From the NCBI RefSeq assembly GCF_008727875.1, contig NZ_VTWS01000002.1, positions 186,001 through 250,000 of the forward strand: DNA of 64,000 nucleotides, given 5' to 3'. Position 1 is the first letter of the stretch. Each line of letters opens with the position of its first letter. A model generated the notes under the pieces. It did no database searches. It was not told where the DNA came from and was given only the letters and a program-made list of their open reading frames with translations. The DNA comes from Larkinella humicola (lineage in GTDB: Bacteria; Bacteroidota; Bacteroidia; Cytophagales; Spirosomataceae). Below, piece after piece: positions 19,802-44,425 of this stretch. Position numbers and translations under genes: made by a program.

Positions 19802-21187
19802 TCAGAGTCCGTATTTCTCCAGACGGCGGTACAATGCCTGCCGCGACAGCCCAAGTTCACGGGCGATGTCGGTGATGTTGCCGTGGTACTTTTGCATGGC
19901 CTGCTGAATCATTTTCTTCTCCATATCTTCAATCTGAAGATTCTCCTGGAACGGCAAATCCTTGTCCGTCGGAATCGCGGCCGGGGTGCTGGTACCAAAG
20001 TAAAAATCTTCCGGTTCCAGCACATTGCCCTGCGCCAGAATAACCGCCCGCTCGATGGCGTGCTGCAATTCCCGGATGTTCCCCGGCCAGCGGTACTGCT
20101 GCAATTGCCGGGTTAGGGCCGGACTGATCGAAGCGACTTTGCGGTTGTATTGCTTGCGGTATTGCTTCAGAAAATGCTCGGCCAGCGGCACAATGTCTTC
20201 GGGCCGTTCGCGCAGGGGCGGAATGTGAATCTCGATGGTATTGATCCGGTAGAGCAAATCCTGCCGGAATGACCGGTCACTGACGTGCTGGTAAATCGGT
20301 GAGTTCGTGGCGCAAATCAGGCGGACGTCGATATTTTTGGGCTTGTTCGTTCCCAGTCGGGTCACCACCCGCTGTTGCAAAACCGTCAGCAGTTTAGCCT
20401 GCTGGGGCAGTGAAATGTTGCCGATTTCATCCAGAAAAATCGTGCCACCCTGAGCTTCTTCAAACCGCCCGGTCCGGTCTTCGCGGGCATCGGTGAAAGC
20501 ACCCTTGACGTGGCCGAACAATTCACTCTCGAACAGACTGTCGCTCAAAGCGCCCAGATCGACGCTCACAAACGGTTTGTCACGCCGGAGCGATCGCTGG
20601 TGTAACGCTCTGGCGACCACATCCTTCCCGGTTCCGTTCTCACCCAGAATCAGCACATTGGCATCCGTTTCGGCCACGCGCTCCACGGTGGCAAACACCT
20701 GCCGCATGGAGGGGCTGACGGCTATGTAGCCGGATTGGTTTTGCGACTTGCCGCCCACCGACGCCGATCCGGCCGGGCTGCTGGTTTTCGACAGTCCGTT
20801 GCTGTCGTCTTTCCGCCCTTCCAGCGCACTTTGCAGGGTGGCCAGTAGTTTATCATTTTCCCAGGGTTTCAACACAAAATCCCGGGCGCCGGATTTGATG
20901 GCCCGCACTGCCATTTCAACGTCGCCATAAGCTGTGATCAGCACAACCGCCGTGGTGGGTTTAATGTCCAGAATCCGGTCGAGCCACAGAAAACCCTCGC
21001 GGCCACTGCTGTTGTCGCGCTGGAAATTCATGTCGAGCAGCACGAGATCGTAGCTTCCGTTGGTGATCAGAAACGGAATTCGCTCAGGATTTTTTTCAAT
21101 ATCAACCTGGGGATAATGGCGTTTGAGCAACAATTTGGCTGCGCTCAACACATCGACGTCGTCGTCGATAATCAGAAGTTTCGACAT
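19802..21187 (-). CDS. NtrC-family sigma-54-dependent response regulator
   Basis: 461 residues in the NtrC order. Receiver domain 1-118 with acceptor Asp52, Thr85 and Lys107. Sigma-54 AAA+ domain about 153-380 with Walker A GENGTGKD (182-189), the loop GAFTDA (229-234) and Walker B TIFLDEI (249-255). C-terminal Fis-type helix-turn-helix (ITDIARELGLSRQALYRRLE). The loop is GAFTGA in most family members; here the fifth residue is Asp233. The protein should bind dyad enhancers and drive sigma-54 promoters. Matching sites lie immediately upstream of the divergent adaptor gene (21332-21368) and again before permease P10. It is co-transcribed with the kinase. Confidence 0.94.
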   Translation of the reverse strand: MSKLLIIDDDVDVLSAAKLLLKRHYPQVDIEKNPERIPFLITNGSYDLVLLDMNFQRDNSSGREGFLWLDRILDIKPTTAVVLITAYGDVEMAVRAIKSGARDFVLKPWENDKLLATLQSALEGRKDDSNGLSKTSSPAGSASVGGKSQNQSGYIAVSPSMRQVFATVERVAETDANVLILGENGTGKDVVARALHQRSLRRDKPFVSVDLGALSDSLFESELFGHVKGAFTDAREDRTGRFEEAQGGTIFLDEIGNISLPQQAKLLTVLQQRVVTRLGTNKPKNIDVRLICATNSPIYQHVSDRSFRQDLLYRINTIEIHIPPLRERPEDIVPLAEHFLKQYRKQYNRKVASISPALTRQLQQYRWPGNIRELQHAIERAVILAQGNVLEPEDFYFGTSTPAAIPTDKDLPFQENLQIEDMEKKMIQQAMQKYHGNITDIARELGLSRQALYRRLEKYGL

Positions 21188-21331: not shown

Positions 21332-21347
21332 TGTCCGCTTTCGGACA
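21332..21347. promoter_or_regulatory. Enhancer dyad 1a (TGTCCG-N4-CGGACA)
   Basis: TGTCCGCTTTCGGACA, a dyad with 6-bp perfect arms. It is the distal of two dyads in the 342-bp gap between the regulator gene and the adaptor gene and is a probable binding site of the Fis-type helix-turn-helix regulator. Confidence 0.7.
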
Positions 21348-21352
21348 AAACT

Positions 21353-21368
21353 TGTCCGCATGTGGACA
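21353..21368. promoter_or_regulatory. Enhancer dyad 1b (TGTCCG-N5-GGACA)
   Basis: TGTCCGCATGTGGACA pairs at seven of eight positions. Its centre is 21 bp (two helical turns) from dyad 1a, so two regulator dimers would bind the same DNA face. Confidence 0.7.
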
Positions 21369-21423
21369 GGAATTAGCCCTCAAAATCACCATAACTTACT
21401 GTCTATCAGCACTTGTAAATTAC

Positions 21424-21440
21424 TGGCACGTCAATTGGCA
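21424..21440 (+). promoter_or_regulatory. Sigma-54-like promoter of the adaptor/ABC operon
   Basis: TGGCACGTCAATTGGCA matches the sigma-54 consensus TGGCACG-N4-TTGCW except that TTGG replaces TTGC. The -24 GG lies 65 bp from the centre of dyad 1b, a usual enhancer distance. Initiation near 21451 leaves about 80 nt of leader before the ATG at 21530. Apart from these sites the rest of the 21188-21529 gap shows nothing recognisable. Confidence 0.65.
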
Positions 21441-21529
21441 TTAGACTATCCAAATGGATGATGCTGAAAAATCATTTTCTTGCAGCCTTATTCAGGAATC
21501 AATTAGTCAACCAATCAATCAACGAATTA

Positions 21530-22777
21530 ATGGATCGCGTATTACCTAAACGATTTTGGACAAGCCAGCGGATTGCCATTGCAATCGGCGGAGTAGCCGT
21601 AATCGGATTACTGGCTTACAACTTTCTATGGGCCGATCACCGTTCGAAACTGAACGTCGAAAAGGATAAAATTACGATTTCAACCGTTTCAACCGGCACT
21701 TTCGACGATTTCATTGTCGTAACCGGTGTGGTTCAGCCTTTGAAAACCATCCGGCTCGATGCCATCGCCGGGGGTTATGTAACCGAGAAACTCGTAGAGG
21801 GTGGAGCAATGGTGAAACAGGGCGAAGTATTGCTGAAGCTGGAAAACCAGAACCTGCGACTCAACTTCCTCCAGTCGGAAACCGAAGCCAACCGATTGGT
21901 CAACGATTTGCAAAATACCCGTCAACGCTTGCGGGTGGAACGCTATACGCTGCAAAAAACGCTCTCAGATCTGGATTTTCAGCTCGACAAGGCCAAAGAT
22001 GCGTACGATCGCCAGGCGAGATTGTTTAAAGACAAAGCCGTTCCCGAACAGGAGTACCTGACGGCCAAACGGGATTATGACCGGCTGGTTGAACAACGGA
22101 AAATTGAAGTAGAATCGCAGAAATACCAGCAGGAAAACTCGCTGATTCAGATCAAGCAACTGGAAGAAACGCTGGCCCGGACGCAGAAAAACGTGGCCCT
22201 CTGGCAGCAAACACTGAATAACCTGGTGGTCAAAGCACCGGTTTCGGGTCAGTTATCGTCGATGGACGTGGAAGTCGGTTCCAACATCAACCAGGGCCAG
22301 AACATTGGCCAGATCGATGACCTCAACGGTTTCAAAATGCGGGTCGGCATTGACGAACACTACAACAGCCGCATCTTCGCCGGGTTGAACGGAACATTTG
22401 AATACAGCGGCACCAACAACGCCTTACAGATTACGCGGGTTTATCCGGAGGTTCGGAACGGACGGTTTGAGGTGGACATGATTTTCCCGAAAGGCGCTCC
22501 GGCGGGGATCAAACGTGGCCAGTCGACGCCCATTCAACTCGAACTGGGCAAGGCTTCGAAAGCGACGCTGTTGCCGGTGGGCGGTTTCTTCTCCGATACG
22601 GGTGGCAACTGGGTGTATGTGGTGGATAAAGTGGGCAACCGGGCAGTGAAACGGAGCATTACGCTGGGTCGTAAAAACCCCGAATATTTCGAAGTGCTGA
22701 CCGGCCTCGAACCAGGCGAACAGGTCATTACGTCATCGTACGAGAACTTTGGTGATAACGAAGTCCTTGAATTTTAA
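21530..22777 (+). CDS. HlyD/RND-type periplasmic adaptor of an ABC exporter
   Basis: 415 residues from the ATG at 21530 (MDRVLPKRFW). An ATG at 21458 is also in frame but begins only a few bases after the predicted start site, so it is less likely. A transmembrane anchor (RIAIAIGGVAVIGLLAYNFL) is followed by a lipoyl/biotinyl-like half (TGVVQPLKTIRLDAIAGGYV), a long alpha-helical hairpin (about 115-215) and the second lipoyl half (VKAPVSGQLSSMDVEVGS), then beta-barrel and membrane-proximal domains. The adaptor bridges an inner-membrane permease to an outer-membrane channel. It leads the operon; the ATPase follows 113 bp later across an inverted repeat. Confidence 0.9.
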   Translation: MDRVLPKRFWTSQRIAIAIGGVAVIGLLAYNFLWADHRSKLNVEKDKITISTVSTGTFDDFIVVTGVVQPLKTIRLDAIAGGYVTEKLVEGGAMVKQGEVLLKLENQNLRLNFLQSETEANRLVNDLQNTRQRLRVERYTLQKTLSDLDFQLDKAKDAYDRQARLFKDKAVPEQEYLTAKRDYDRLVEQRKIEVESQKYQQENSLIQIKQLEETLARTQKNVALWQQTLNNLVVKAPVSGQLSSMDVEVGSNINQGQNIGQIDDLNGFKMRVGIDEHYNSRIFAGLNGTFEYSGTNNALQITRVYPEVRNGRFEVDMIFPKGAPAGIKRGQSTPIQLELGKASKATLLPVGGFFSDTGGNWVYVVDKVGNRAVKRSITLGRKNPEYFEVLTGLEPGEQVITSSYENFGDNEVLEF

Positions 22778-22890: not shown

Positions 22891-23568
22891 ATGATACGTA
22901 CCGTAAACCTACAAAAAGTTTTTGCGACTGAAGAAGTCGAAACCACCGCGCTGCACGGCATTTCCATGGATGTTAAGGACGGCGAATTTGTGGCTATGAT
23001 GGGTCCGTCGGGCTGTGGAAAGTCCACGCTGCTCAACATCCTCGGCCTGCTGGACAACCCGTCGGAAGGCGAATACCACTTCTACGGCACCGAGGTGTCG
23101 AAGATGTCGGAACGTCAGCGGGCGCAGTTGCGGAAAGGCTCCATCGGCTTTGTGTTTCAGAGCTTTAACCTCATCGACGAGCTAACGGTTTACGAAAACG
23201 TCGAACTGCCGCTGCTGTATCTGAAAACCCCCGCCGAAGACCGTAAGAAAGCGGTGGAGGAAGTACTCGAACGGATGAACATCATGCACCGTCGCAACCA
23301 CTTTCCGCAGCAACTCTCCGGTGGTCAGCAGCAACGGACGGCCATTGCCCGCGCGGTGGTTGCCAAACCCAAGATGATCCTGGCCGATGAGCCGACGGGT
23401 AACCTGGACTCCACCAACGGGGAGGAAGTGATGAAATTGCTGAACCAGTTGAACACGGAAGGTACAACCATCATCATGGTGACGCACTCACCCTACGATG
23501 CCGGTTTTGCCCACCGCATCGTCAACCTGTTCGACGGCAAGATTGTGACGGAGAATTTCCACGTGTGA
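22891..23568 (+). CDS. MacB/LolD-type ABC transporter ATP-binding protein
   Basis: 225 residues, a single nucleotide-binding domain. Walker [10 protein letters not shown] (38-46), Q-loop Gln90 in VFQSFNL, signature LSGGQQQR (142-149), Walker B MILADE (162-167), D-loop NLDS (171-174) and H-loop His199. The domain is of the MacB/LolD class that pairs with FtsX-type permeases, in which ATP hydrolysis drives periplasmic conformational work rather than passage through the membrane. It is the only ATPase gene seen in the window while thirteen permease genes follow, so it probably energises several of them. Confidence 0.95.
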
Positions 23569-23843: not shown

Positions 23844-26264
23844 ATGCTTCTCAACTACACTAAAATTGCGCTGCGTAATCTGTGGAAACACAAAACGTTT
23901 GCGTTGGTCAACGTCATTGGCATGTCGGTAGCGTTTGCGAGCTGCCTTTTGCTGTTTCTGGCCGCCTGGTCGCACCTGACGTTCGATAACTTCCACACCA
24001 ACGGCAAGCAGTTGTTCATGGTGTATGAGCAGTCGGGACCCACGAACAAATCGGCGACGATGCCTGCTCCCCTGGCACCGTCGCTCCGCAAAGAACTCCT
24101 GCCGGAGATCGCGCACATTACGCGGGTGGTCGATGGCGGTGGAGCGGTACGGTACGGCGATCAGGAATTTGACAAGAGCGTCCGGTTTGTCGATCCCGAT
24201 TTTTTCGAAATGTTTTCGTTTCCGATGCGGAAGGGCAATTCACTCACTGTTCTGAACAGCCTGAGTAACATCGTCATCAGCGAAAAAACCGCCCAGTCGA
24301 TTTTCGGAACCGCCGACCCTGTTGGAAAAACCCTGTCGCTGCGGTTGAACGAAACCTGGAAACCGTTCGTGGTGTCGGGCGTGATTGCCGATGCGCCCAC
24401 CAATTCCAGCCTGAAGTTCGACCTGCTGGCCCGGTTTGAAGCCTACCCGGAATACCAGCAAAACAAAGACCAGTGGGACAACCGGTTTCATTCGGTATTC
24501 GTCCAGGTCGATCCGAAAATAAGCGAAGCCACGTTTGAACAACGACTCCGGCCTTTCGTCACCAAATACCTCGCCAATTCGATCCTGAACCTCAAACGCG
24601 ACGGCGGGCAGCCCGACGAAAACGGCGACCTGACCAGCCTGCGGTTGTTGCCGATGACCGACATGCACTTCGACACCGAGGTGGGCGGAGGCAATGGCTC
24701 GCCCGTCAAACGTTCTTACCCGATTCTGCTGCTGGTGGTGGCCGGTTTCATCGTGCTGATTGCCTGCATCAACTTCATCAATCTTTCTACGGCCCGGTCC
24801 ATGACGCGCTCCCGCGAGGTCGGTATGCGCAAGGTGCTGGGGGCCTTAAAACAACAACTGGTCTTTCAATTCTGGGGCGAAGCCTTCATCCTTTGCCTGA
24901 TTTCGCTGGTCCTGGGTGGTTTGCTGGTCACGGCTTTGGTCGCCGAGTTGAACAGCATTCTACGAACCAAAGCGTCCCTCTCCTCCCTCGCCGACCCTAC
25001 CGTAATCGTCTCCATGCTGATGGCTTTTCTGGTGATTACCTTCGTAGCTGGCGGCTATCCGGCCCTGTTTGTAACTCGACTGAACACCATTCAGATTCTG
25101 AAAGGAAAAGTTTCACTGGGAAAAACCGGAGCGGTTCGCAACACCCTGCTCATTGTTCAGTTTGCCATTGCCACGTTTCTGATGGCCTGTACGCTCATTG
25201 CCTGGCAACAAGTCAACTTCCTGCGCACCATGCCCCTGGGATTTAATGAAAACCAGGTCGTTAGCATCCCCATTGGCAGCTCGGTCAATGGACGGCAGGC
25301 GTTGAATCTTTTCCGGGACAAGCTGGCACAACAGCCCCGGGTGCTAAGCGTAACGGGCGCGTATAAAAACTTTGGCCGTGGTCTGGATGGTTCCACGGTG
25401 ACGTCGATTGTGGGCTTTGACCACAAGAACCGGACGATTCGGAGCCACTGGCAACCCGTCGATTACGACTACCTGAAAACCCTGGACATCAAATTGCTGG
25501 CCGGGCGCGATTTCTCCCGTCAGTACGCAACCGACACCACCACCAGCGTCATCATCAACGAAACGATGGCGAAGGAACTGGGCGAGAAAAACCCGGTCGG
25601 CACCCTGCTGAACGTGAGCGATGGCGAGCCGCCTTTGGTGGTCATCGGCGTGGTGAAAGACTACCACCACGAATCGCTCAAGAAAACCGTGCAGCCCAAT
25701 ACCCTTCTCATGAGCCACGACTGGCCGATTGGCTACGTTCTGGTCAAAATTGCTCCGGACAACGTGCCGGCCACGATGGCGGTTTTGAAAAAAGCCTGGG
25801 AGGAAGTTGCTCCAAAATCTGAATTTGAAGGCAGTTTCCTCGACGAAAATACCGACCGGCAATACCAGTCGGAAGAACAAATGGCCAAACTATTCATTAC
25901 AGCCGCCGGAGTGGCCATCGTGCTGTCGTGCATGGGTCTGTTTGCCATCGCCATCATGATCATGGCGCAGCGAATCAAAGAAATTGGCGTGCGTAAAGTA
26001 CTGGGTGCCAGCGTGACCAGCATTGTCATCCTGCTATCGAAAGACTTCCTGAAGCTGGTGCTGATCGGCATTGTCATCGCATCCCCGCTGGCGTGGTGGC
26101 TGATGAGTCAGTGGCTGAAAGAATACGCGTTCAAAATCGAACTGGCCTGGTGGATGTTCGCCGTCGCGGGTTTGCTCGCCATTCTGATCGCCCTGGTCAC
26201 CGTCAGTTTCCAGAGTATCAAAGCGGCCTTAACCAATCCGGTATCCTCACTTCGTTCGGAGTGA
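23844..26264 (+). CDS. FtsX/MacB-type ABC permease P1
   Basis: 806 residues with a duplicated MacB layout that recurs in all the permeases below: a first transmembrane helix (about 20-42), periplasmic domain PCD1 (about 45-275), an FtsX block of three helices (about 285-425), a second helix and PCD2 (about 430-670), then a second FtsX block (685-800). Each FtsX block has a cytoplasmic coupling helix that contacts the ATPase: SREVGMRKVLGA (about 321) and RIKEIGVRKVLGAS (about 709). One polypeptide therefore equals a MacB dimer. P1 differs from the rest in its N-terminus (MLLNYTKIALRNLWKHKTF). Such proteins move envelope substrates from the periplasmic face. Directly after the small secreted gene; ends SSLRSE. 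Confidence 0.92.
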   Translation: MLLNYTKIALRNLWKHKTFALVNVIGMSVAFASCLLLFLAAWSHLTFDNFHTNGKQLFMVYEQSGPTNKSATMPAPLAPSLRKELLPEIAHITRVVDGGGAVRYGDQEFDKSVRFVDPDFFEMFSFPMRKGNSLTVLNSLSNIVISEKTAQSIFGTADPVGKTLSLRLNETWKPFVVSGVIADAPTNSSLKFDLLARFEAYPEYQQNKDQWDNRFHSVFVQVDPKISEATFEQRLRPFVTKYLANSILNLKRDGGQPDENGDLTSLRLLPMTDMHFDTEVGGGNGSPVKRSYPILLLVVAGFIVLIACINFINLSTARSMTRSREVGMRKVLGALKQQLVFQFWGEAFILCLISLVLGGLLVTALVAELNSILRTKASLSSLADPTVIVSMLMAFLVITFVAGGYPALFVTRLNTIQILKGKVSLGKTGAVRNTLLIVQFAIATFLMACTLIAWQQVNFLRTMPLGFNENQVVSIPIGSSVNGRQALNLFRDKLAQQPRVLSVTGAYKNFGRGLDGSTVTSIVGFDHKNRTIRSHWQPVDYDYLKTLDIKLLAGRDFSRQYATDTTTSVIINETMAKELGEKNPVGTLLNVSDGEPPLVVIGVVKDYHHESLKKTVQPNTLLMSHDWPIGYVLVKIAPDNVPATMAVLKKAWEEVAPKSEFEGSFLDENTDRQYQSEEQMAKLFITAAGVAIVLSCMGLFAIAIMIMAQRIKEIGVRKVLGASVTSIVILLSKDFLKLVLIGIVIASPLAWWLMSQWLKEYAFKIELAWWMFAVAGLLAILIALVTVSFQSIKAALTNPVSSLRSE

Positions 26265-26267
26265 AAA

Positions 26268-26340
26268 GAGTGAAGAGTTATGAGTTAAGAGTTAAAATGG
26301 ATGTCTGCATTTCTAACTCTTAACTCATAACTCTTCACTC
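26268..26340. repeat. 27-bp perfect inverted repeat of GAGTKAW heptads, P1-P2 gap
   Basis: Left arm 26268-26294 reads as heptads GAGTGAA, GAGTTAT, GAGTTAA, GAGTTA; the right arm 26314-26340 is its exact complement with a 19-base loop. It fills the whole gap between permeases. Confidence 0.9.
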
Positions 26341-26355
26341 ATAATTTTACACAAC

Positions 26356-28773
26356 ATGCTAACGAACTATTTCAAAATCGCGTTTCGGAATCTGGTGCGC
26401 CACAAGGTGTTTTCGGCCATCAACATTGTCGGACTGTCCATCGGGATTGCGGCTTGTCTCCTGATTCTGCAATATGTGGATTTTGAGCTGAGCTACGACC
26501 AGTTTCACGCGAAGGGCGATCGGATTTACCGCGTCAAACAGGATCGGTATGACAAGGGCAAACTGAGCACGCAATGGGCCGGGGGTGCCCAGGCGGCTGG
26601 CAACTCGTTCAAAGCGACCTTCCCGGAGGTGGAAGATTACGTCAAAGTGCTGAAGCGCCGGGCATTGATTGCCGATTACGGCGAAAAAAGCCTGAAAGTC
26701 GAGAAGGTTTTTGTGGCCAGCCAATCGTTCTTCAAAATCTTCTCCTATCCCCTGCTCGCCGGTGATCCCACCACCGCGCTGGCTGAACCCAATACCGTCG
26801 TACTTTCCGAAACCGTTGCGAAAAAGCTATTCGGAAACGAACAGGCCATGGGCAAAACCATCCGGTTCAACCAGCGGAAAGCAGTTAAAGTAACGGGCGT
26901 TTACAAAGATATGCCGGCCAACACGCACCTGCACCCGGATCTGCTGATTCCGCACGTGACGTTTGTGAAAGAAATGGGGCCGGACAACAATCCGGACAAT
27001 GCCTGGATGTGGGACGGAGCGATGTCGTATTTGTTGCTGCGCCCCGACGCCAATCCGAAAGCCCTCGAAGCCAAATTTGTGCCGTATATTGAAAAAACCA
27101 TTGGGGCCGAACTGAAAAAATACGATGCCGGTGCGGTCTATACGCTGCAACCCCTGAAAGACATTCACCTCTACTCGCACCTGATGGAGGAAGCCGAGCC
27201 CAATGGCGACGGCAACACGGTGTATCTGCTGCTGGCGATTGCGTTCTTCATCGTCGTCATTGCCTGGGTTAACTACATCAATCTGGCGACGGCGCGGGCC
27301 ATCAACCGGGCCAAAGAAGTCGGCATTCGCAAGGCCGTCGGTTCGCAACGGGGGCAGTTGATCCGGCAATTCCTGATCGAATCGGTCTTGCTGAATGGCC
27401 TGGCGGTGATTCTGGCGCTGGGTTTTGTCGTGGCCGTGATGCCGCTGTTCAACGCACTGTCGGGCCAGCACCTGACGCTGTCGTTGCTGGGCAACGGGTC
27501 GTTCTGGTTGGCGTTGGCAACCTTGTTCATCATTGGAACCTTCTTTTCGGGTTTGTATCCGGCGTTTGTTTTGTCCGGTTTCCGGCCGGTCACGGTGTTG
27601 AAAGGCAAGATGGTGACGTCGCGGCAGGGCATCATTCTGCGGAAATCGCTGGTCATTTTTCAGTTTGCGGCTTCGCTGTTTCTGCTCGTCGGCACGCTGG
27701 CGGTTTTTCGGCAAATCAGCTTCATGCAGGAACAAAGTCTGGGTATCAACATCGATCAGACGCTGGTCGTCAATCCGCCCATCATCCGTTCAGATTCCAC
27801 GTTCATGCGGCAGATGGTGGCTTTTAAAGAAGAACTGCTGCGCCAACCCGCCATCCGGCACGTAGCCGCGTCGTCGGTGGTGCCGGGTCAGGCGTCGGAC
27901 TGGAACGCGGGCGGCATTCGATTGAAAGGCACCGACGAAAGCAAGGGAAGCCAATACCGGGTGATTGCCGTCGATTACGACTTCCTGAAAACCTTCGACC
28001 TGAAACTGCTGGCCGGGCGCGATTTTTCGAAAGAGTACGGCCTGGAAAAGAAAGCCGTCATTTTCAACAAAATGGCGATCAAGCAACTGGGTTTCAACAA
28101 GCCGGAAGAGTCGATTGGCAAAGAAATTGATTTCTGGGGCGAAACGTTTACCATCGTTGGCGTCACCGACAATTTTCACCAGCAATCGCTGCGGGATGCC
28201 TTCGAACCGCTGATTCTCCGGCTCATTCCGGATGCGGGCGGTTATTTTTCGATCAAAATGGCTTCCAGTCAACTAAACACCACAATTGCTACCGTCCGGA
28301 GCGAATGGAACCGGTTTTTCCCCGGCAATCCGTTTGAATACTTCTTTCTGGACGAACATTTCAACGCGCAATACCAGGCCGATCAGCGGTTTGGGCAGGT
28401 GTTCGGTCTGTTCACCGGTTTAGCGATTCTGGTCGCGTGCCTGGGCTTGTTCGGGCTGGCGTCGTTCACCACGGCCCAGCGGACCAAAGAAATTGGCATT
28501 CGCAAGGTGCTGGGCGCCACGGTGCCCGAGATCGTGCGGATGTTGTATAAAGAATTTGCGATTTTGATTCTGATTGCCTGCGTGGTAGCGACTCCGCTGG
28601 CGTGGCTGGCCGTGAGCCAGTGGCTCAACACGTATGCCTTTCGGGCCGATATAAACTGGTGGCTTTTTGCACTCCCGTTCGTGCTGGTACTGGCGATTGC
28701 GCTGCTGACGGTTTCGTTTCAGTCCGTAAAAGCGGCTCTGATGAATCCGGTTACCTCGCTGCGTTCGGAATAA
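26356..28773 (+). CDS. FtsX/MacB-type ABC permease P2
   Basis: 805 residues with N-terminal motif MLTNYFKIAFRNLVRHKVF and the extracytoplasmic starter FELSYDQFHAKGDRIYRV. First coupling helix RAKEVGIRKAVGSQRGQL (about 318), second RTKEIGIRKVLGATVPEI (about 708). It departs from the others after the second coupling helix: MLYKEFAILILIACVVAT replaces the common LLSKDFLKLVLI segment, so the last helices may pack differently. PCD2 has VGVTDNFHQQSLRDAFEP where most copies have GVVKDFH. Ends TSLRSE. The gap to P1 is a heptad inverted repeat and the gap to P3 a 38-bp inverted repeat. Confidence 0.92.
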   Translation: MLTNYFKIAFRNLVRHKVFSAINIVGLSIGIAACLLILQYVDFELSYDQFHAKGDRIYRVKQDRYDKGKLSTQWAGGAQAAGNSFKATFPEVEDYVKVLKRRALIADYGEKSLKVEKVFVASQSFFKIFSYPLLAGDPTTALAEPNTVVLSETVAKKLFGNEQAMGKTIRFNQRKAVKVTGVYKDMPANTHLHPDLLIPHVTFVKEMGPDNNPDNAWMWDGAMSYLLLRPDANPKALEAKFVPYIEKTIGAELKKYDAGAVYTLQPLKDIHLYSHLMEEAEPNGDGNTVYLLLAIAFFIVVIAWVNYINLATARAINRAKEVGIRKAVGSQRGQLIRQFLIESVLLNGLAVILALGFVVAVMPLFNALSGQHLTLSLLGNGSFWLALATLFIIGTFFSGLYPAFVLSGFRPVTVLKGKMVTSRQGIILRKSLVIFQFAASLFLLVGTLAVFRQISFMQEQSLGINIDQTLVVNPPIIRSDSTFMRQMVAFKEELLRQPAIRHVAASSVVPGQASDWNAGGIRLKGTDESKGSQYRVIAVDYDFLKTFDLKLLAGRDFSKEYGLEKKAVIFNKMAIKQLGFNKPEESIGKEIDFWGETFTIVGVTDNFHQQSLRDAFEPLILRLIPDAGGYFSIKMASSQLNTTIATVRSEWNRFFPGNPFEYFFLDEHFNAQYQADQRFGQVFGLFTGLAILVACLGLFGLASFTTAQRTKEIGIRKVLGATVPEIVRMLYKEFAILILIACVVATPLAWLAVSQWLNTYAFRADINWWLFALPFVLVLAIALLTVSFQSVKAALMNPVTSLRSE

Positions 28774-28796
28774 CGAGTTATGAGTGAAGAGTTAGG

Positions 28797-28897
28797 ACTT
28801 CCGCTTTTGCCCCTAAATCCCCTAAAGGGGACTTTTAGCATCCGGATTAGACTGCGTCCAAGTCCCCTTTAGGGGATTTAGGGGCAAAAGCGGAAGT
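28797..28897. repeat. Perfect 38-bp inverted repeat (CCCCTAAA type) inside P2-P3 gap
   Basis: Arms 28797-28834 and 28860-28897 are perfect reverse complements with a 25-base loop that holds ATCCGGATT. The core words are GCCCCTAAATCCCCTAAAGG and complement. Remnants of GAGTGAAGAGTTA heptads flank it, so this element seems to have been placed inside an older heptad repeat. A close relative lies between susC and susD (62040-62108). Confidence 0.9.
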
Positions 28898-28974
28898 GCA
28901 ATGAATTATCAGACGTAAGTCCTAAAAGTGATGAGTTTGGTTAATGCTCTTCACTCTTAACTAAAAAAAGGGGT

Positions 28975-31353
28975 ATGATTCGCAATTACTTCAAAACCGC
29001 CTGGCGGGGTTTGCTCAACAACAAAGGCTACTCGGCCATCAACATTGGCGGACTGGCCGTGGCGTTGGGAATCGGTATTCTGCTGCTCTGGTGGGTGAAA
29101 GACGAAACGAGTTTCGACCGTTTTCATTCGAATGCGGATCGGATCTACCGCATCAATGGCGGTTTTGGCTCCGGCACGGCGCAGCAGTTTTCGGGCCAGA
29201 TCGTGGCCCCCGTGGCGGCTTATGCCAAACAGCAGATGCCGTCGGTGGAAGACGCCGTGCGCATCGTCGGGAATTATGATGTCTCGCCTTTCAAGGTGCA
29301 GGAAAAAACGCTGGTGGAGGAAAAAGCCGTCTACGTCGATCCGGGTTTCTTTACGTTTTTCAGCTTCGAATGGGTGAAAGGCAACCGCGAACGTCCTTTC
29401 CCGGACCTGCAATCGGTCGTTCTGACGGAGTCAGCGGCTTTGAAATACTTTGGCTCGGCTGAACCGGTTGGAAAGGTACTGTATTCCGTTCCGAAAAAGC
29501 AGAACTTTGTCGTGAGTGGCGTCATCCGGGATTTTCCCGACAACTCCAGCATCCGGTGTAATATGCTGTTTCCGTTGCAGATTTTGGCGAATCAATACAG
29601 TGGCGCTCCCGGTGATTACTGGAAAACCATGGATTCGGACTGGGGCAACTGGTTCGCCCAAACGTATTTCCGGGTCGATCCGCGCGCCAATCTGGACAAG
29701 CTGGTAAAAACCCTGAACGACGTTCACCATGCCAGCAATAAATATGATCAGGTGACGGTGTACCGCCTGCAACCGCTGACCGACATCCACCTCTACCGGC
29801 CCGACGGCACACCGGGAGCCATACAGGAAGTAAAAATGATGGGCATCGTCGCCCTGATTCTGCTGGCCATCGGCTGCATCAACTACGTCAACCTGGCCAC
29901 GGCGCGGGCCACGCAACGGGCGAAGGAAGTGAGTGTCCGGAAGGTCGTCGGGGCGGGTCGCGAACACCTGATTGGCCAGTTTCTGGCCGAATCGCTCCTG
30001 ATTTTTGTCGTCGCGCTGCTGCTGGCCATCGGGCTGATCAAAGGGCTGGAATCGACCTATCAGGAACTAACCGGCAAAACCCAGCCCTTCTCGCTGGCCG
30101 ATCCGCAGACCTGGCTGGTGCTGGTGGGCGCGCTGGTATTTACCCTCGCCGTTGCGGGCATCTATCCGGCTCTGGTTTTGTCGTCGTTCGAACCCTTGAA
30201 AGTGTTGCGCGGAAAAATGGCCACGGGCGGCAAAGGCGTTACGTTCCGGCAAACACTGGTGATCACCCAATTTGCCTTTTCGACGGCCTTGATCGTAGGA
30301 ACTCTGGTCATCGGCAACCAACTGCGGTTTATGCGCGAGCGCAACCTGGGTTATGACCGGGAAAATGTCTTCGCGTTCTGGATGACCGGCGATATGTTGA
30401 AGCATTTCGATGCGATCAAGGCCGAATTGTCGCGCCAGCCCAGCGTCCGGAGCGTAACCGCTTCGAATGGCAATCTGCTCAGTTTAGGCAATTCGACCGG
30501 CGATACGGACTGGGACGGAAAGCCCAAAAACAGCATGTTTATCATCAACCGGATGCAGGTCGAGAAAGATTTCATTGCCACCTTCGGCCTGAAAATGGTG
30601 CAGGGCGAGACCTTTACCGGCTCCTCCGCCGACTCGATGCACGTCATCCTGAACGAAACCGCCGTGAAAAATACGGGCATTAAAAATCCCATCGGCAAGC
30701 GTTTTACGCTCGGTCAGACGAAGGGAATCATCATCGGTGTCGTGAAAGATTTCCATTTTGCTTCCCTGCGTCAGAAAGTAGAACCGGCGGTTTTCTTTTA
30801 CCGAAACAACACCAATTTGGGGCGGCTTTACGTCAAAACCACGGGTCGGGATGCGTCCAAAGCCATTGCGGCTACCGAAAAACTCTGGAAAAAGTACAGC
30901 CCCGATTATCCGTTCGACTACCAGTTTATGGACGTGCAATACAACGAAATGTATAAATCGGAACAGCGGACGGGGCAGTTGTTCAACTTCTTTGCGGGAA
31001 TCGCCATTCTGGTTTCCTGCCTCGGTTTATTTGGGTTAGCGACCTTCACAGCTCAGCAACGTACCAAAGAAATCGGCATCCGCAAGGTGCTGGGTGCGTC
31101 GATTACGGGCATTGTCGCGCTGCTTTCCAAAGATTTTCTGAAGCTGGTGCTGATCGGAATCCTGATCGCAACCCCGATTGCCTGGTGGACGATGAGCCAG
31201 TGGCTAACTGCCTTTGCCTATAAGATTGACCTGGCGTGGTGGGTGTTTGCGCTGGCGGGGCTGCTGGCCGTTCTGATTGCCTTTGCCACCGTCAGTTTTC
31301 AAAGCATCAAAGCCGCCTTGATGAATCCGGTGAAGAGTTTGAAATCAGAATAG
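28975..31353 (+). CDS. FtsX/MacB-type ABC permease P3
   Basis: 792 residues. N-terminus MIRNYFKTAWRGLLNNKGY, then TSFDRFHSNADRIYRI at the start of PCD1. The first coupling helix is unusual, AKEVSVRKVVGAGREHL (about 315), with Ser where the other copies carry Gly; the second is standard RTKEIGIRKVLGASITGI (about 695). PCD2 keeps GVVKDFHFASL. The C-terminus is KSLKSE rather than LRSE. The TAG stop (31351-31353) directly abuts the stop of the oppositely oriented Uma2 gene. Confidence 0.92.
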   Translation: MIRNYFKTAWRGLLNNKGYSAINIGGLAVALGIGILLLWWVKDETSFDRFHSNADRIYRINGGFGSGTAQQFSGQIVAPVAAYAKQQMPSVEDAVRIVGNYDVSPFKVQEKTLVEEKAVYVDPGFFTFFSFEWVKGNRERPFPDLQSVVLTESAALKYFGSAEPVGKVLYSVPKKQNFVVSGVIRDFPDNSSIRCNMLFPLQILANQYSGAPGDYWKTMDSDWGNWFAQTYFRVDPRANLDKLVKTLNDVHHASNKYDQVTVYRLQPLTDIHLYRPDGTPGAIQEVKMMGIVALILLAIGCINYVNLATARATQRAKEVSVRKVVGAGREHLIGQFLAESLLIFVVALLLAIGLIKGLESTYQELTGKTQPFSLADPQTWLVLVGALVFTLAVAGIYPALVLSSFEPLKVLRGKMATGGKGVTFRQTLVITQFAFSTALIVGTLVIGNQLRFMRERNLGYDRENVFAFWMTGDMLKHFDAIKAELSRQPSVRSVTASNGNLLSLGNSTGDTDWDGKPKNSMFIINRMQVEKDFIATFGLKMVQGETFTGSSADSMHVILNETAVKNTGIKNPIGKRFTLGQTKGIIIGVVKDFHFASLRQKVEPAVFFYRNNTNLGRLYVKTTGRDASKAIAATEKLWKKYSPDYPFDYQFMDVQYNEMYKSEQRTGQLFNFFAGIAILVSCLGLFGLATFTAQQRTKEIGIRKVLGASITGIVALLSKDFLKLVLIGILIATPIAWWTMSQWLTAFAYKIDLAWWVFALAGLLAVLIAFATVSFQSIKAALMNPVKSLKSE

Positions 31354-31833
31354 TTAAGCGAAAATATCATTTAGCGGTAGTTCAATCCCGGTTACCGGGT
31401 CGGTAAGAGTGGTATCATCGGTAAAAAACTGGTATTTCCCAATGGCCGAATAAACCGAAATCGCTTTAAAACTGGGCAAAACCAGCCAGCATGATTGAAC
31501 ACCGGCCAGAAAATACCGCTCGAATTTAGCCAGAATATCGTCATTGGATTTCGAAGGCGAAACAATCTCAATGACCGTGAGCGGCATTTGAGTCATGGAC
31601 GTAACGTCGTGCAGAAAGTCGACCTGGAGTTTAGGATAAATGGCAATGTCCGGTACGGTATCCGGGCGTTCCGGCATAGTTAAATTAATCTCCGGCAGAA
31701 AGGTGTATTTGGTTCGATAATGCAGTTGCAAAGCAAAAGTTAAATTGCCTTGCACAATAGAGTGATTCAGTGTGGGCATTGGTTTTCCGCGTTCGCGTTC
31801 GTAGTCAGAGAGTTGTTCAATGGTAGCTTCCAT
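31354..31833 (-). CDS. Uma2-family (DUF820) putative PD-(D/E)XK nuclease
   Basis: 159 residues from the ATG at 31833 (an upstream TTG in frame is less likely). The Uma2 core is recognised by NHSIVQGNL (about 23), the active-site Asp in VPDIAIYPK, the Glu in VIEIVSPSKSN and LAKFERYFLAGVQSCW. Uma2 proteins are single-domain nuclease-fold proteins, very numerous in Cytophagales and cyanobacteria, with no settled function; they have been linked loosely to mobile elements. It sits backwards inside the permease array, in the gap that would otherwise hold a heptad inverted repeat, suggesting a later insertion. Its base composition is slightly more A+T-rich than that of the permeases. Confidence 0.82.
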   Translation of the reverse strand: MEATIEQLSDYERERGKPMPTLNHSIVQGNLTFALQLHYRTKYTFLPEINLTMPERPDTVPDIAIYPKLQVDFLHDVTSMTQMPLTVIEIVSPSKSNDDILAKFERYFLAGVQSCWLVLPSFKAISVYSAIGKYQFFTDDTTLTDPVTGIELPLNDIFA

Positions 31834-31876
31834 AACCAAGAGAGTTTTTTCGGATTGAAGTTTAAAGATAACAAAA

Positions 31877-34327
31877 ATGCTAACGAACTATCTGAAAATT
31901 GCCGTTCGGAACTTGCTGAGAAACAAGTCGTTTTCGGCCATCAACATTCTGGGCCTTTCGGTCGGTTTGACGTGCTGCATGTTGTTACTACTTTACATCC
32001 GGAGCGAGTTATCGTTCGATCAGCACCACCAGCACGCGAAGCAATTGTATTTGATGTCGAGCGCCGTCAAATCGCCTGGATTAAATGAAGAATATCCCCG
32101 CCTTTCGGGGCCGATGGCAGCCGCGATTCAATCGGAATTTCCGGAGGTCGAAAAAGTCGCGCGGCTTTATGTCAACATCATGGATGACAAAACGTTGCTG
32201 CAGGTGCAGGAAACCGGCAAGCCGATGAAGTCATTTTACGAAACCCAGGGCTATCAGGTCGACTCGACGTTCTTTGATCTTTTTTCCTACGAATTCACGG
32301 AAGGCAGTTCTAAAAAGGCCCTGTTTCAGCCCAACTCGATTGTGTTATCCGAAGAGGTCGCCCATAAACTTTTCGGAAATACACCCGCCTTGAACAAAAC
32401 CGTTCGGATCAGCGGTTCGACAGGCAACGGCGACAATTTCCGGGTGTCGGGCGTTTACCGCGATGAAAGTTCGCGTTCCCACATCGATGCCCGGTTTTTT
32501 GTACCGATGTATGTCGGCATGATCGGCAATTACCTTCGGCAGCCCAATCTGGATTATACCAATAACAACCTCTTTACTACTTACCTCCGGTTAAGACCGG
32601 ATGCCGACGCACAGCAGTTGGAACAGAAAATACCGGCGTTTGTCGAAAAATACATGCGCAGTGAGCTGAAACGGTACGGTTACGATAAACGACTCTTCCT
32701 GATTCCCGTTCCGGAGCTTCATTTATACAGCCAGATTCAGGCTATTGTGACGCCGACCAACAGCACCACCTATCTGTACATCCTGGCATCGATTGCGGTT
32801 TTCACCCTGTTGATTGCCTGTATTAATTTCATGAATCTTTCAACGGCCCGGTCGGCCAAACGGGCGGCTGAAGTCGGTATTCGGAAGGTGATGGGCGCGG
32901 AACGGGGTTCACTAATCGGGCAGTTTCTGGGCGAGTCGATGATCCTGTCGTTGCTGGGGCTTGTCATTGCATTGGGGCTGATTGCCCTGCTTCTGCCGGT
33001 ATTCAATCAACTGGCCGGCAAATCCTTGCAGGTGTCGGAATTGCTGGAACCGTCAATTGCTCTGTCTTTCATCGGGTTGACGCTGTTGACGGGCTTAATC
33101 GCGGGCAGTTACCCGGCGTTTTTCCTGTCGATGTTCAATCCGGCTCAGGTGCTGAAGGGCAAGTTTGTCAACAGCCTGTCGGCGGTGGCTTTGCGTCGCG
33201 GGCTGGTGGTTTTTCAGTTTGTGGTCGCCATCGGGCTGGTGCTGGCCACGTTCGTGATTCAGGAACAGATGCGGTTTTTGCGGAATCAGTCGCTGGGTTT
33301 TACGCAGGATCAGCAAATTGCCATTCCGTTGCGGAGCAGTGAGTCGCGCGGGATGTATACGGCGTTTCGGAATGAGATTTTACGGAATAACCAGGTGGTT
33401 TCGGCGGCCGGAACCCAGTATTATCCCGGCATTATGAACCCCACGGATTTTGGTTTGTATCGCCCGGATCAAACCGTCAATGAAATGCAGAATGTCAAAA
33501 ACAGCGAGGTCGATTTTGAGTACCTTCAAACGATGGGTTTCAAACTGGTAGCCGGACGGTTGTTCTCGCGGCAATTTCCCGGCGATACTAATAACCGGCT
33601 CGTTGTCAATGAATCAACCCTGCGAAAGCTTCAGATTCCACTCCGCAAAGCCATTGGGCAAAAACTGAATTTTAATTGGCACGGGCAGACGTACCAGTAC
33701 GAAGTGGTTGGTGTTCTGAAAGACTTTCACCACGAAAACCTGCATCAACCCATTGAGCCCTACGCTTTTATGCTGATGACCCGCCCGAATTTCAACTACA
33801 TCATTGCGCACGTCAATTCAGACAACATGGAAACCGTGCTGGGTTTTCTGGAACGGAAATGGAAAGCCCTGCGCCCCGACGAGCCGTTCGAATATTCGTT
33901 TTTGAACGAAGATTTCCAGAAAAATTACCAGGCCGAAATCCGTACGTCGCGCATCGTGACTTATTTCACCGCCATTTCCATCCTGATTTCCTGCCTCGGG
34001 CTGTTCGGGTTAGCGGCTTTTGCGGCTCAGCAACGCACCAAGGAAATTGGCGTTCGGAAGGTGCTGGGCGCTTCGATATCCCACATCGTGCTGCTACTTT
34101 CCACCGATTTTTTAAAGCTGGTCGTCATCGCCATTCTGATTGCGTCACCGATGGCGTGGTGGGCCATGAATCGATGGCTGCAAAACTTTGCGTATAAGAT
34201 CACAATTCCGTGGTGGATTTTCGTAGCCGCTGGCGGTTTGGCGTTACTGATCGCGTTCATCACCGTCAGTTTCCAGAGCATCAAAGCCGCGTTGATGAAC
34301 CCGGTGAAATCACTGCGTTCGGAATGA
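31877..34327 (+). CDS. FtsX/MacB-type ABC permease P4
   Basis: 816 residues, one of the longer copies. N-terminus MLTNYLKIAVRNLLRNKSF; after the first helix it has RSELSFDQHHQHAKQLYLM in place of the DRIYRV motif of most others. First coupling helix RAAEVGIRKVMGAERGSL (about 326), second RTKEIGVRKVLGASISHI (about 718). PCD2 includes GVLKDFHHENLHQPIEP. No ATPase or adaptor gene lies nearby; its own promoter was not seen. The gap before it contains the Uma2 gene, so it may need a start site downstream of 31353. Ends KSLRSE. Confidence 0.92.
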   Translation: MLTNYLKIAVRNLLRNKSFSAINILGLSVGLTCCMLLLLYIRSELSFDQHHQHAKQLYLMSSAVKSPGLNEEYPRLSGPMAAAIQSEFPEVEKVARLYVNIMDDKTLLQVQETGKPMKSFYETQGYQVDSTFFDLFSYEFTEGSSKKALFQPNSIVLSEEVAHKLFGNTPALNKTVRISGSTGNGDNFRVSGVYRDESSRSHIDARFFVPMYVGMIGNYLRQPNLDYTNNNLFTTYLRLRPDADAQQLEQKIPAFVEKYMRSELKRYGYDKRLFLIPVPELHLYSQIQAIVTPTNSTTYLYILASIAVFTLLIACINFMNLSTARSAKRAAEVGIRKVMGAERGSLIGQFLGESMILSLLGLVIALGLIALLLPVFNQLAGKSLQVSELLEPSIALSFIGLTLLTGLIAGSYPAFFLSMFNPAQVLKGKFVNSLSAVALRRGLVVFQFVVAIGLVLATFVIQEQMRFLRNQSLGFTQDQQIAIPLRSSESRGMYTAFRNEILRNNQVVSAAGTQYYPGIMNPTDFGLYRPDQTVNEMQNVKNSEVDFEYLQTMGFKLVAGRLFSRQFPGDTNNRLVVNESTLRKLQIPLRKAIGQKLNFNWHGQTYQYEVVGVLKDFHHENLHQPIEPYAFMLMTRPNFNYIIAHVNSDNMETVLGFLERKWKALRPDEPFEYSFLNEDFQKNYQAEIRTSRIVTYFTAISILISCLGLFGLAAFAAQQRTKEIGVRKVLGASISHIVLLLSTDFLKLVVIAILIASPMAWWAMNRWLQNFAYKITIPWWIFVAAGGLALLIAFITVSFQSIKAALMNPVKSLRSE

Positions 34328-34336
34328 AGAAGGAAG

Positions 34337-34372
34337 AGTTATGAGTGAAGAATTAACTCTTCATTCATAACT
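34337..34372. repeat. 15-bp inverted repeat, P4-P5 gap (one mismatch)
   Basis: Arms 34337-34351 (AGTTATGAGTGAAGA) and 34358-34372 pair with one mismatch. It is a shortened version of the heptad inverted repeats of the neighbouring gaps. Confidence 0.75.
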
Positions 34373-34389
34373 CGTAACTAAAGAAGGAT

Positions 34390-36807
34390 ATGCTGCGTAA
34401 CTACTTCAAAATCGCCTGGCGGAACCTGTTGAAACACCCGACCACCACGAGCATTCACCTGATCGGCTTGACGCTCGGCCTGACGACCTGTCTGTTGATC
34501 CTGCTCTTTATTCAGAACGAATGGGGGTATGACCGACACCTCAAGCAGGGCGACCGGATCTACCGCGTGAACCTCATCCGTACAACGGGTGCCGAGGCCG
34601 AAAAGTCGGGAATTACCCCCTATCCGCTGGCGCCCGCGATTCGTACCGACTTCGCCGACTGGTCCAAAGTGACCCGCATTCACGCCGACCGCGACCTTTC
34701 CGTGCTGGTTTCGCCCCAGAAAATTCTGAAAGAAGACAACGTCGTTTTTGCGGAACCCGACTTCATCGATCTGTTTGATATTGAAATGGTCGAAGGAAAC
34801 GGGAAGAATGTTCTCGCCGAACCCAATAAAGTCATCTTAACCCAGAAAACCGCTCAAAAGTATTTCGGCTCGGCTTCGGCCCTCGGAAAAACGCTGCGAC
34901 TCAACAACGACCTGAAGGTGCAGGTGGCGGGTGTCATGCGGGATATGCCTTCCCAAACGAATTTTCCGGTAACGATGCTGGTGTCTTTCCTGTCGATGAA
35001 ATCCTATTTTTCATTCGGCATCGACCAATGGGGACTTCGCTCCGGCGGGAGTGTGTTTGCGGTTTTGCCCGAGGGCCAATCGCCGGAGCAGTATGCCGCC
35101 CGGCTTCGACAGGCTGAGAAAAAATACTTTTCCAGCCGCGACGGCGAAACCAGCACCTTGGTTCTCCAGCCGCTCCACGACATCCATTTCAACCCCGACT
35201 ACGAGGGCACCATCCTGACGGCTGCCATTTCGCCCACGTATCTCTACGTTTTCGGTGCCGTTGGTCTGTTTGTTTTGCTGATAGCCTGCGTGAATTTTAT
35301 CAACATGTCGACGGCACGCGCCATGACGCGCGCCAAGGAAGTGGGCGTCCGGAAAGTGATTGGGGCCACGCAAAGCCAGTTGGTCTGGCAGTTTCTGAGC
35401 GAAGCCCTGTGGCTGACCGGTATTTCGGCTCTGCTGTCGTTGCTGCTGACCAACGCTTTATTACCGGTCGTCAACGATTTTTTGCAGAAACAGATTACCT
35501 CTGAGTGGCTTCAGACCAGCAGTATTCTGGCGGCTCTGGCGTTGTTCACGGCCTTGCTGGCGGGTCTGTATCCGGCGTTTTTCCTGGCCCGTTTCCGACC
35601 CATCCGCGCGTTGAAAACCGTACCCGAAGCTGGTGGTCTTCGCTCCGGACGCGTCTGGCTGCGGCAGGGACTGGTCGTTTTCCAGTTTTCCGTATCCCTC
35701 ATTCTGGCGGTGGGCGTGCTGATCATTTACCGGCAGATGAACTATTTCCGGCAGAAAGACCTGGGTTTCAAACGGGATGCCATTGTTACGGTTGCCATCC
35801 CGGATTCGAAGAAAATGGCGGTATTGGGACACTCGCTGCGGCAAATTCCGGGGGTCGAGCACCTTTCGTTTGCGCTTGGAGCGCCGACATCACCCAACAA
35901 TTTCGGTACCGACATGCGCCCCGACCCCGCCAATCCGACGAAGAAAATAAACATCTCGCTCAAACTGGCCGACGCCGATTACCTCAAGACGTACGGCTTA
36001 AAACTGGTCGCCGGACGGTTTCTCGAACACCGCGATACCGTGGCGATTTCGGGTGCTATACCGGAAGAAAAGCGCCGGTATGCTTTTGTGGTGAACGAAA
36101 ATACCGTCAAGGCACTGGGCTATGCCAAACCTGAACAGATGCTGGGGCGTCGGATTCGGGTGGGTATCAACGATATTGAAGCCGAAGTGGTGGGCGTCGT
36201 GAAGGATTTTCACACCAGTTCGCTGCACAAACCGATTGAGCCAATGGTGCTGATGAACCTGCCGGAGTTCTACTTTTCCGTTGGACTCAACTTGCGGACG
36301 AGCAACTACACGGCCACGATGGCGGCCATTGAAACAGCCTGGAAAAGAATTTATCCGGAAAGCTTGTTTGATGCCAAATTCCTGGACGACAGCCTGCAGG
36401 AACTGTACGAAGACGAACAGCGGCAATTCTCGCTCCTCCGCGTTTTTGCCGGTATTGCCCTGGTAATCTGCTGTCTTGGGTTGTGGGGACTGGCCACGTT
36501 CACCATCGAACGGCGCACCAAAGAGATTGGCGTTCGGAAAGTGTTGGGGGCGTCCGTTACGGGAATTGTCGCTCTGATTTCCAAAGACTTTCTGAAACTG
36601 GTGCTGCTGGCGCTCGTCATTGCGACCCCGATTGCGTGGTATGCGATGGAAAGCTGGCTGAAAGAATTCAGTTACCGAATCGACGTGGAATGGTGGGTGT
36701 TTGCGCTGGTCGGCGCGGTTTCCATCCTGATCGCCTTTGCCACGGTTTCGTTTCAAAGCATCAAAGCCGCTTTGATGAACCCGGTTACCTCACTTCGTTC
36801 GGAATGA
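34390..36807 (+). CDS. FtsX/MacB-type ABC permease P5
   Basis: 805 residues. N-terminus MLRNYFKIAWRNLLKHPTTT, with NEWGYDRHLKQGDRIYRV opening PCD1. First coupling helix RAKEVGVRKVIGATQSQL (about 314), second RTKEIGVRKVLGASVTGI (about 707). The helix before the second coupling segment reads CCLGLWGLATFTIERR, with Trp in place of the common Phe. PCD2 carries VGVVKDFHTSSLHKPIEP. Immediately upstream is the short inverted repeat of the P4-P5 gap. Ends TSLRSE. Confidence 0.92.
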   Translation: MLRNYFKIAWRNLLKHPTTTSIHLIGLTLGLTTCLLILLFIQNEWGYDRHLKQGDRIYRVNLIRTTGAEAEKSGITPYPLAPAIRTDFADWSKVTRIHADRDLSVLVSPQKILKEDNVVFAEPDFIDLFDIEMVEGNGKNVLAEPNKVILTQKTAQKYFGSASALGKTLRLNNDLKVQVAGVMRDMPSQTNFPVTMLVSFLSMKSYFSFGIDQWGLRSGGSVFAVLPEGQSPEQYAARLRQAEKKYFSSRDGETSTLVLQPLHDIHFNPDYEGTILTAAISPTYLYVFGAVGLFVLLIACVNFINMSTARAMTRAKEVGVRKVIGATQSQLVWQFLSEALWLTGISALLSLLLTNALLPVVNDFLQKQITSEWLQTSSILAALALFTALLAGLYPAFFLARFRPIRALKTVPEAGGLRSGRVWLRQGLVVFQFSVSLILAVGVLIIYRQMNYFRQKDLGFKRDAIVTVAIPDSKKMAVLGHSLRQIPGVEHLSFALGAPTSPNNFGTDMRPDPANPTKKINISLKLADADYLKTYGLKLVAGRFLEHRDTVAISGAIPEEKRRYAFVVNENTVKALGYAKPEQMLGRRIRVGINDIEAEVVGVVKDFHTSSLHKPIEPMVLMNLPEFYFSVGLNLRTSNYTATMAAIETAWKRIYPESLFDAKFLDDSLQELYEDEQRQFSLLRVFAGIALVICCLGLWGLATFTIERRTKEIGVRKVLGASVTGIVALISKDFLKLVLLALVIATPIAWYAMESWLKEFSYRIDVEWWVFALVGAVSILIAFATVSFQSIKAALMNPVTSLRSE

Positions 36808-36810
36808 AGA

Positions 36811-36880
36811 GTTATGAGTGAAGAGTTATGACGGGGCCACCCGCACGGTTGGCTGACGCATATAACTCTTCACTCATAAC
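36811..36880. repeat. 19-bp perfect inverted repeat of GAGTKAW heptads, P5-P6 gap
   Basis: Arms 36811-36829 and 36862-36880 (GTTATGAGTGAAGAGTTAT and complement) are perfect. The loop holds TTGGCTGACGCA (36849-36860), half of the palindromic core found whole in the P6-P7 and P8-P9 gaps. Confidence 0.88.
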
Positions 36881-36897
36881 TCATAACTAAAAAATGT

Positions 36898-39306: not shown

Positions 39307-39317
39307 AAAAGAGTAAT

Positions 39318-39402
39318 GAGTTAAGAGTGATGAGTTAAGAGTTGGCTGACGCACGTGTTTTCAGCTTGCGTCAGCCAACTCTTAACTCATCGCTCTTAAC
39401 TC
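39318..39402. repeat. 36-bp inverted repeat (one mismatch) with palindromic core, P6-P7 gap
   Basis: Arms 39318-39353 and 39367-39402. The outer part is heptads (GAGTTAA, GAGTGAT, GAGTTAA, GAGTTGG). The inner 37 bp (39342-39378) is a TTGGCTGACGCA palindrome that is shared, with a single change, with the P8-P9 gap. Confidence 0.9.
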
Positions 39403-39418
39403 TTAACTAAAAAAGCTT

Positions 39419-41827: not shown

Positions 41828-41828
41828 T

Positions 41829-41913
41829 GAGTTAAGAGTGATGAGTTAGAACCTGGCGGCATCGGCCGTCCGTAGGGTTGGCTGACCCTTTTTTAACTCA
41901 TCACTCCTAACTT
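41829..41913. repeat. 20-bp inverted repeat (two mismatches), P7-P8 gap
   Basis: Left arm 41829-41848 (GAGTTAAGAGTGATGAGTTA) and right arm 41894-41913 pair except at two positions. The long loop contains TTGGCTGAC, a remnant of the palindromic core seen in two other gaps. Confidence 0.8.
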
Positions 41914-41929
41914 TTAACTAAAAAAACTT

Positions 41930-44305: not shown

Positions 44306-44333
44306 CAAAGAGTTAAGAGTGAAGAGTTAAGAG

Positions 44334-44384: not shown

Positions 44385-44425
44385 TTCTAAACTCTTAATT
44401 CCTAACTCATAACTCTTCACTAAAA

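Follow-up and report, generated by a model that had tools for sequence, protein, structure and literature searches.

An NtrC-type response regulator and a short-loop membrane kinase, encoded side by side in Larkinella humicola, probably activate a sigma-54 regulon devoted to export permeases, judging from sequence features. The window, that is the whole 64,000-nucleotide stretch of DNA analysed here (C13:186001-250000 of the 7.86 Mb host genome, G000), carries both genes together with two twin-dyad enhancers and two arrays of permease genes (Table 1). Since the arrangement recurs before about 20 operons, most of them for permeases, one sensor-regulator pair probably switches a whole export regulon. 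The first-pass annotation had proposed control of the export operon by the adjacent kinase-regulator pair, and this proposal is supported at the sequence level by the domains of the regulator, the presence of rpoN, the conservation of dyads and promoter across families and phyletic coupling. However, it missed the scale of the system, namely the genome-wide set of sites, the second enhancer in the window and the two-phase spacing.

Direct reading of the first site confirmed two TGTCC-N6-GGACA dyads with centres 21 bp apart, followed by the TGGCACG-N4-TTGG element, in the gap between the response regulator gene and the divergent HlyD gene, as originally described. The distance of 65 bp given at that time has to be restated: 55 bases separate the TGG from the end of dyad 2, and about 63.5 separate it from the centre of that dyad. 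The degenerate IHF-like element of this site begins 20 nt ahead of the TGG. With both strands of the window counted, 8 loose dyads (up to two mismatches) were found where 6.8 would be expected, and 10 loose sigma-54 strings where 25 would be; neither element singly is above chance or significant within the window, and an argument from the window alone was dropped. Among nine genomes of the same genus, identity is 97% and 99% in the two dyads and 100% in the 15-base promoter, as against 73% in the spacer between them, 76% in the upstream 100 bases and 64% in the downstream sequence.

Table 1. Features of the regulatory and export loci in the window
Feature	Sequence	Positions	Strand	Basis or remark
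Histidine kinase, two N-terminal TM segments, very short loop		18470..19798	-	Hydropathy
NtrC-type response regulator: receiver, sigma-54 AAA+ with GAFTDA loop, Fis HTH		19802..21187	-	
Enhancer dyad 1, TGTCC-N6-GGACA	TGTCCGCTTTCGGACA	21332..21347	none	Read directly
Enhancer dyad 2, TGTCC-N6-GGACA	TGTCCGCATGTGGACA	21353..21368	none	Read directly
Degenerate IHF-like element, core TATCAG intact		21404..21416	+	2 mismatches to WATCARNNNNTTR; factor inferred
Sigma-54-like promoter TGGCACG-N4-TTGG (-24/-12; -12 C replaced)	TGGCACGTCAATTGG	21424..21438	+	Sigma factor inferred
HlyD-family adaptor		21529..22777	+	Start probably MDRVLPKRFW; ORF call begins 21458
ABC ATPase, MacB/LolD/DarD-like		22891..23568	+	Domain and family matches
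Tandem array of ~800-aa permeases		23844..46885	+	First: MacB_PCD/FtsX tested; rest: PF12704 matches
Second twin-dyad enhancer	TGTCCGTAAATGTACG / CGTCCGTTTACGGACA	49966..50002	none	Genome pattern search
IHF-like element, 0 mismatches	TATCAGATTGTTA	50036..50048	+	Factor inferred
Second promoter TGGTATG-N4-TTGG		50055..50069	+	
Second permease array, downstream of second enhancer		50116..59989	+	Likely start MLRNYFKI at 50116

The Response_reg, Sigma54_activat and HTH_8 domains of the regulator each score above the Pfam cut-off. The sigma-54-contact loop could be read in 70 of 80 orthologues, 69 of which have GAFTDA and one GSFTDA instead of GAFTGA. The best 25 of 70 NCBIfam equivalog matches are all below cut-off, the top one being PEP_resp_reg (391.4 bits against 502.6), and the named equivalogs compared include NtrC, ZraR, AtoC, PrsR and GlrR; by its domains the regulator is thus placed in the NtrC family, yet it falls below the cut-off of the named equivalogs shown. 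The nearest named relatives, at 87-92% identity, are from three Larkinella species. In the partner kinase the loop comprises a few residues by hydropathy, and two N-terminal segments with a short loop were predicted, on hydropathy only, in 16 of 19 kinases (that of the window and 18 picked by hand), the exceptions being L098 with no segment and L121 and L127 with one. The partner kinase resembles, by analogy, intramembrane-sensing kinases, a class with some members that detect their signal by way of FtsX-type transporters. Elsewhere in the genome, a paralogous module HlyD'-ABC-MacB-RR2-HK2 occupies 7008-16068 on the minus strand of C1:1-20000 (L175). The nearest paralogue of the regulator, at C1:8429 (43% identity), lies in this module and has its own TGTGC-type twin dyad, with a spacing of 19 and a promoter 53 bp away, and probably recognises the related dyad TGTGC-N6-GCACA; it and the window regulator are two sister regulators with different dyads.

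Searches of the whole genome recovered the window arrangement repeatedly. The twin dyad with up to three mismatches matched at 15 sites and its reversed form at none, a variable linker with degenerate half sites gave 12 places against 0 in the control, with centre spacings of 21-23 bp, and a dyad followed by TGGYA-N5-WTTG within 43-73 bp gave 15 matches at 13 promoters, again against 0. A profile of 13 sites of the genome recovered its training sites and five more at E < 0.1 (C18:275867, C16:558633, C11:194180, C13:256875 and C16:570133), and reading parts of the permease arrays yielded two others, C16:619589 and C16:626181. The assembled set of 22 sites excludes C3:51393 and C11:1348117 from the 15-site search, which are twin repeats of other sequence with a strict promoter on neither side. 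A strict promoter lies 45-75 bp downstream, on the gene side, at 20 of the 22 sites, part of which had been located with the help of the promoter pattern, and on the mirror side at none; random windows from the same loci contain one in 200 of 34,000 cases (0.6%). Of 19 sites identified from their dyads alone, 15 possess the strict promoter; the 19 include the two rejected sites, which had been excluded for lacking it.

Operons for FtsX/MacB permeases lie downstream of 16 of the 22 sites: the HlyD-ABC-permease operon of the window, seven permease-first operons and eight PadR-permease pairs. In the sample taken to Pfam, MacB_PCD/FtsX was found in all three permeases and PadR in both candidates, one of them at the cut-off. 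Small DUF3244-type proteins follow three sites (L013 above the Pfam cut-off, L016 below it and L015 assigned by similarity), a protein with a beta-lactamase domain follows one, and proteins judged by eye to be secreted, just upstream of a PadR-permease pair, follow two. The three unlinked DUF3244 sites (L013, L015 and L016) have the second dyad TGTCCGGCTTCGTACA in common and similar promoters. MacB_PCD matches in the genome number 114, of which 111 exceed the Pfam cut-off, and many proteins have two; many of these matches on contigs C13, C16, C18 and C20 are in long tandem arrays of 800-900-aa permeases. The genome holds dozens of FtsX/MacB permeases of unknown role, and a single sensor, enhancer and promoter code common to 16 permease operons would offer a handle on the function of the set, through one regulator and one signal.

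The distance between enhancer and promoter is confined to two ranges. The gap between dyad and TGG was compared for the 140 matches listed in relatives, where a few promoters are entered twice, once for each dyad: 82 have 51-55 bp and 50 have 61-66 bp. No match lies at 57-60, and the remaining eight are elsewhere in the allowed 43-73. At the sites of the genome itself the gap is 52-55, 63-64 and once 68 bp. The two values are one helical turn apart, and as the gap is restricted to them, enhancer and promoter would lie on one face of the helix. In three Runella loci (L083, L086 and L087, about 4774-4868) a single twin dyad is flanked on either side, at 53-54 bp, by promoter-like elements, and there the enhancer may serve both HlyD and the regulator gene.

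The spacers themselves appear to be of two kinds. The IHF consensus is WATCARNNNNTTR, and perfect copies begin 18-21 or 29-31 nt before the TGG in 16 of 83 fully read sites and in 0 at three shifted sets of offsets, these offsets having been picked after a scan of the entire spacer that gave 16 perfect matches against 0.4 in shuffles. With up to two mismatches the count is 35, against 4, 3 and 11 at the shifted sets. Downstream of the second enhancer of the window, TATCAGATTGTTA begins 19 nt ahead of the TGG of the second promoter; the first ORF of the array behind it had been called from 50059, inside the promoter. The IHF-like sites of the genome belong mainly to the HlyD, PadR-less permease, DUF3244 and beta-lactamase promoters, and the PadR-permease promoters mostly have spacers of A-tract, GC and T-tract, some of which can be folded as hairpins. 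Hairpins with z <= -2 were found in 14 of 48 spacers of this second promoter type and 3 of 35 in the other group, the groups being split by the IHF-like score itself, and with such counts they are kept as a tendency only. There are exceptions to the grouping, with the PadR site L019 among the IHF-like spacers and the PadR-less permease site L006 in the other group. Only one DNABII protein (HU/IHF family, PF00216) was found in the genome, which makes an alpha-beta IHF doubtful. At L220, L222, L225, L226, L186, L213 and L236 the stretch from enhancer to promoter contains strong hairpins with T runs; if these act as terminators, they would shield the promoter from transcription entering from upstream, with the enhancer still active. 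The two gap lengths, together with spacers of the IHF-like or hairpin kind, provide a natural series on the minimum distance between an enhancer and a sigma-54 promoter.

The site beside the regulator is conserved well beyond the genus. A twin dyad adjoins the regulator in 23 of 30 orthologue loci of the family, one of them weak (L071), and a promoter was also detected by script in 16 of these 23; in the other 7 of the 30 a different divergent gene adjoins the regulator and there are no dyads at that place. A divergent arrangement of the regulator with HlyD and ABC genes is common among 80 named loci. Of 33 loci in which a regulator of at least 63% identity is immediately next to HlyD, 32 have twin dyads and, by a somewhat looser expression, a promoter-like element 52-55 or 64-65 bp away; the 33 are drawn from Larkinella, Emticicia, Runella, Dyadobacter, Persicitalea, Chitinophaga, Ferruginibacter and Flavihumibacter; Chitinophaga costaii (L108) is the only one of the 33 without such a site. 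No site was found in the Spirosoma, Fibrella and Fibrisoma loci, where regulator and HlyD are not adjacent. L119, L120, L122 and L127, in which HlyD adjoins an orthologue of 58-60%, have no such site, and among the named loci with 51-60% orthologues no consensus site was seen beside HlyD except for the doubtful or displaced ones of L124, L125 and L126.

The genome encodes eight proteins with a strong Sigma54_activat match, and the dyads could belong to an activator other than the neighbouring regulator, such as the C1:8429 paralogue with its related dyad; this is considered unlikely in the light of coupling across genomes, which was examined for the neighbouring regulator and for one rival NtrC-type enhancer-binding protein (EBP) of the eight. 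The dyad-promoter pattern gave 437 matches in 121 genomes of the family, against 6 for the reversed control, and sites are numerous only where the regulator is close: 419 of the 437 are in genomes with a match of at least 64% identity, 64 of 66 of which have sites. At 50-63% identity sites occur in 8 of 31 genomes, one each, and where there is no full-length match in 7 of 24, with 10 matches in total, so that 15 of the 55 genomes lacking an orthologue of at least 64% have any; this cut was set after inspection of the data, the counts are uncorrected for relatedness and many of the genomes that lack the regulator are small and related to one another. Within one genus (g27), two genomes without the regulator have 0 matches and seven with it have 1-7. 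Of the genomes without a full-length regulator, G001, G037, G053 and G078 have matches mainly of the ..GCACA type, as expected of the paralogue; G025 is only 66% complete, G089 retains a regulator fragment and the match in G115 looks like chance. The rival EBP is evidently dispensable, its orthologue (scored as missing at E above 1e-120) being absent from 10 of the 66 genomes, 9 of which still have sites, and the site and the neighbouring regulator are syntenic across families. Nevertheless, among the 55 genomes without a close regulator, sites accompany the rival EBP in 10 of 16 (12 matches) and occur in 5 of 39 that also lack it (6 matches), and because sites are commoner where the rival is present, the attribution to the neighbouring regulator is not absolute.

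It is also quite unlikely that the regulator binds at a promoter of the primary sigma factor, activated or repressed, rather than one dependent on sigma-54. The Bacteroidota primary-sigma -7 element is TAnnTTTG, and the downstream half of the promoters is mostly TTTG, with the classical -12 C in only 1 of 21 aligned promoters (L015, with spacing one shorter, is left out of the alignment). Against this, all 21 share GG at -24 and TTG at -12 at fixed spacing, a TA two bases ahead of TTTG occurs in 0/21, and the regulator has a sigma-54 AAA+ domain. One rpoN match was found in the genome, and its protein ends in the ARRTVAKYRE box, which we take to be the hallmark of rpoN. The alignment suggests that this lineage has its own form of sigma-54 promoter, and a form without the -12 C may receive low scores from standard matrices. 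It is highly improbable that the elements are palindromes arisen by chance or remnants of repeats, without any part in regulation: single loose elements in the window are indeed no commoner than expected, but this reading has to contend with the empty reversed control in the genome, the excess over controls in the family, the conservation across families and the two discrete gaps.

In the favoured reading, a dedicated sigma-54 switch for export, the two dyads would form an enhancer for the product of the adjacent response regulator gene in its phosphorylated state. This protein would bind as adjacent dimers two helical turns apart and then assemble its AAA+ ring, which would open the sigma-54 RNA polymerase held at TGGYA-N5-(A/T)TTG about 53 or 64 bp from the enhancer, on the same face of the helix. 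One type of promoter would have an IHF-like bend site at a fixed place in between. The kinase is predicted to have nearly no periplasmic part, and the switch would control some 22 promoters, most for FtsX/MacB-type permeases and including both arrays of the window. A wider speculation is that this represents a Bacteroidota-wide export switch, in which an intramembrane-type kinase senses via its own regulated FtsX-like permeases and signals to the NtrC-type regulator and on to the permease promoters, with short-range, phase-locked enhancers and a fixed IHF-like bend or an A-tract/hairpin between; such a scheme is tentative and, as a whole, rather doubtful.

Several known systems share parts of this design. 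BceRS/BceAB-type modules have a two-TM kinase with a tiny loop, linked to FtsX-type permeases; the kinase here appears alike by analogy, whereas the regulator would be a sigma-54 activator and one kinase would serve many permeases. As in MacAB-TolC and DarBCD, there are an HlyD adaptor, an ABC ATPase and a MacB_PCD/FtsX permease, and the best NCBIfam matches of the exporter proteins are to DarC, DarD and ADOP/DarB, with equivalog and subfamily models all below cut-offs; unlike those systems, there are many long permeases per ATPase. NtrC-, ZraR- and GlrR-type systems likewise have a receiver-AAA+-Fis-HTH regulator with a partner kinase and a palindromic enhancer upstream of a -24/-12 promoter, but here the sites are mainly at FtsX/MacB permeases, the -12 C is missing, the dyads are two turns apart and there are two helical-phase distances to the promoter. 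The GlrR site, given as TGTC-N10-GACA in a table of PMC4987338, resembles the TGTC-N8-GACA seen here, with a half-site spacing of N8 instead of N10. A literature search, with most subscription journals outside its coverage, found nothing on this enhancer, regulator or regulon beyond a 2025 survey (PMC12316311), in which sigma-54 promoters predicted by PSSM are reported as enriched at COG0577 FtsX-like permeases in gamma-Proteobacteria, Opitutia and Bacteroidia, a result that its authors call the first evidence linking sigma-54 to the COG0577 family. The promoter class and the target family of that survey are the same as those described here; the available parts of it name no enhancer, regulator or kinase, and, relative to those parts, the enhancer, the regulator, the kinase and their geometry are what is added here.
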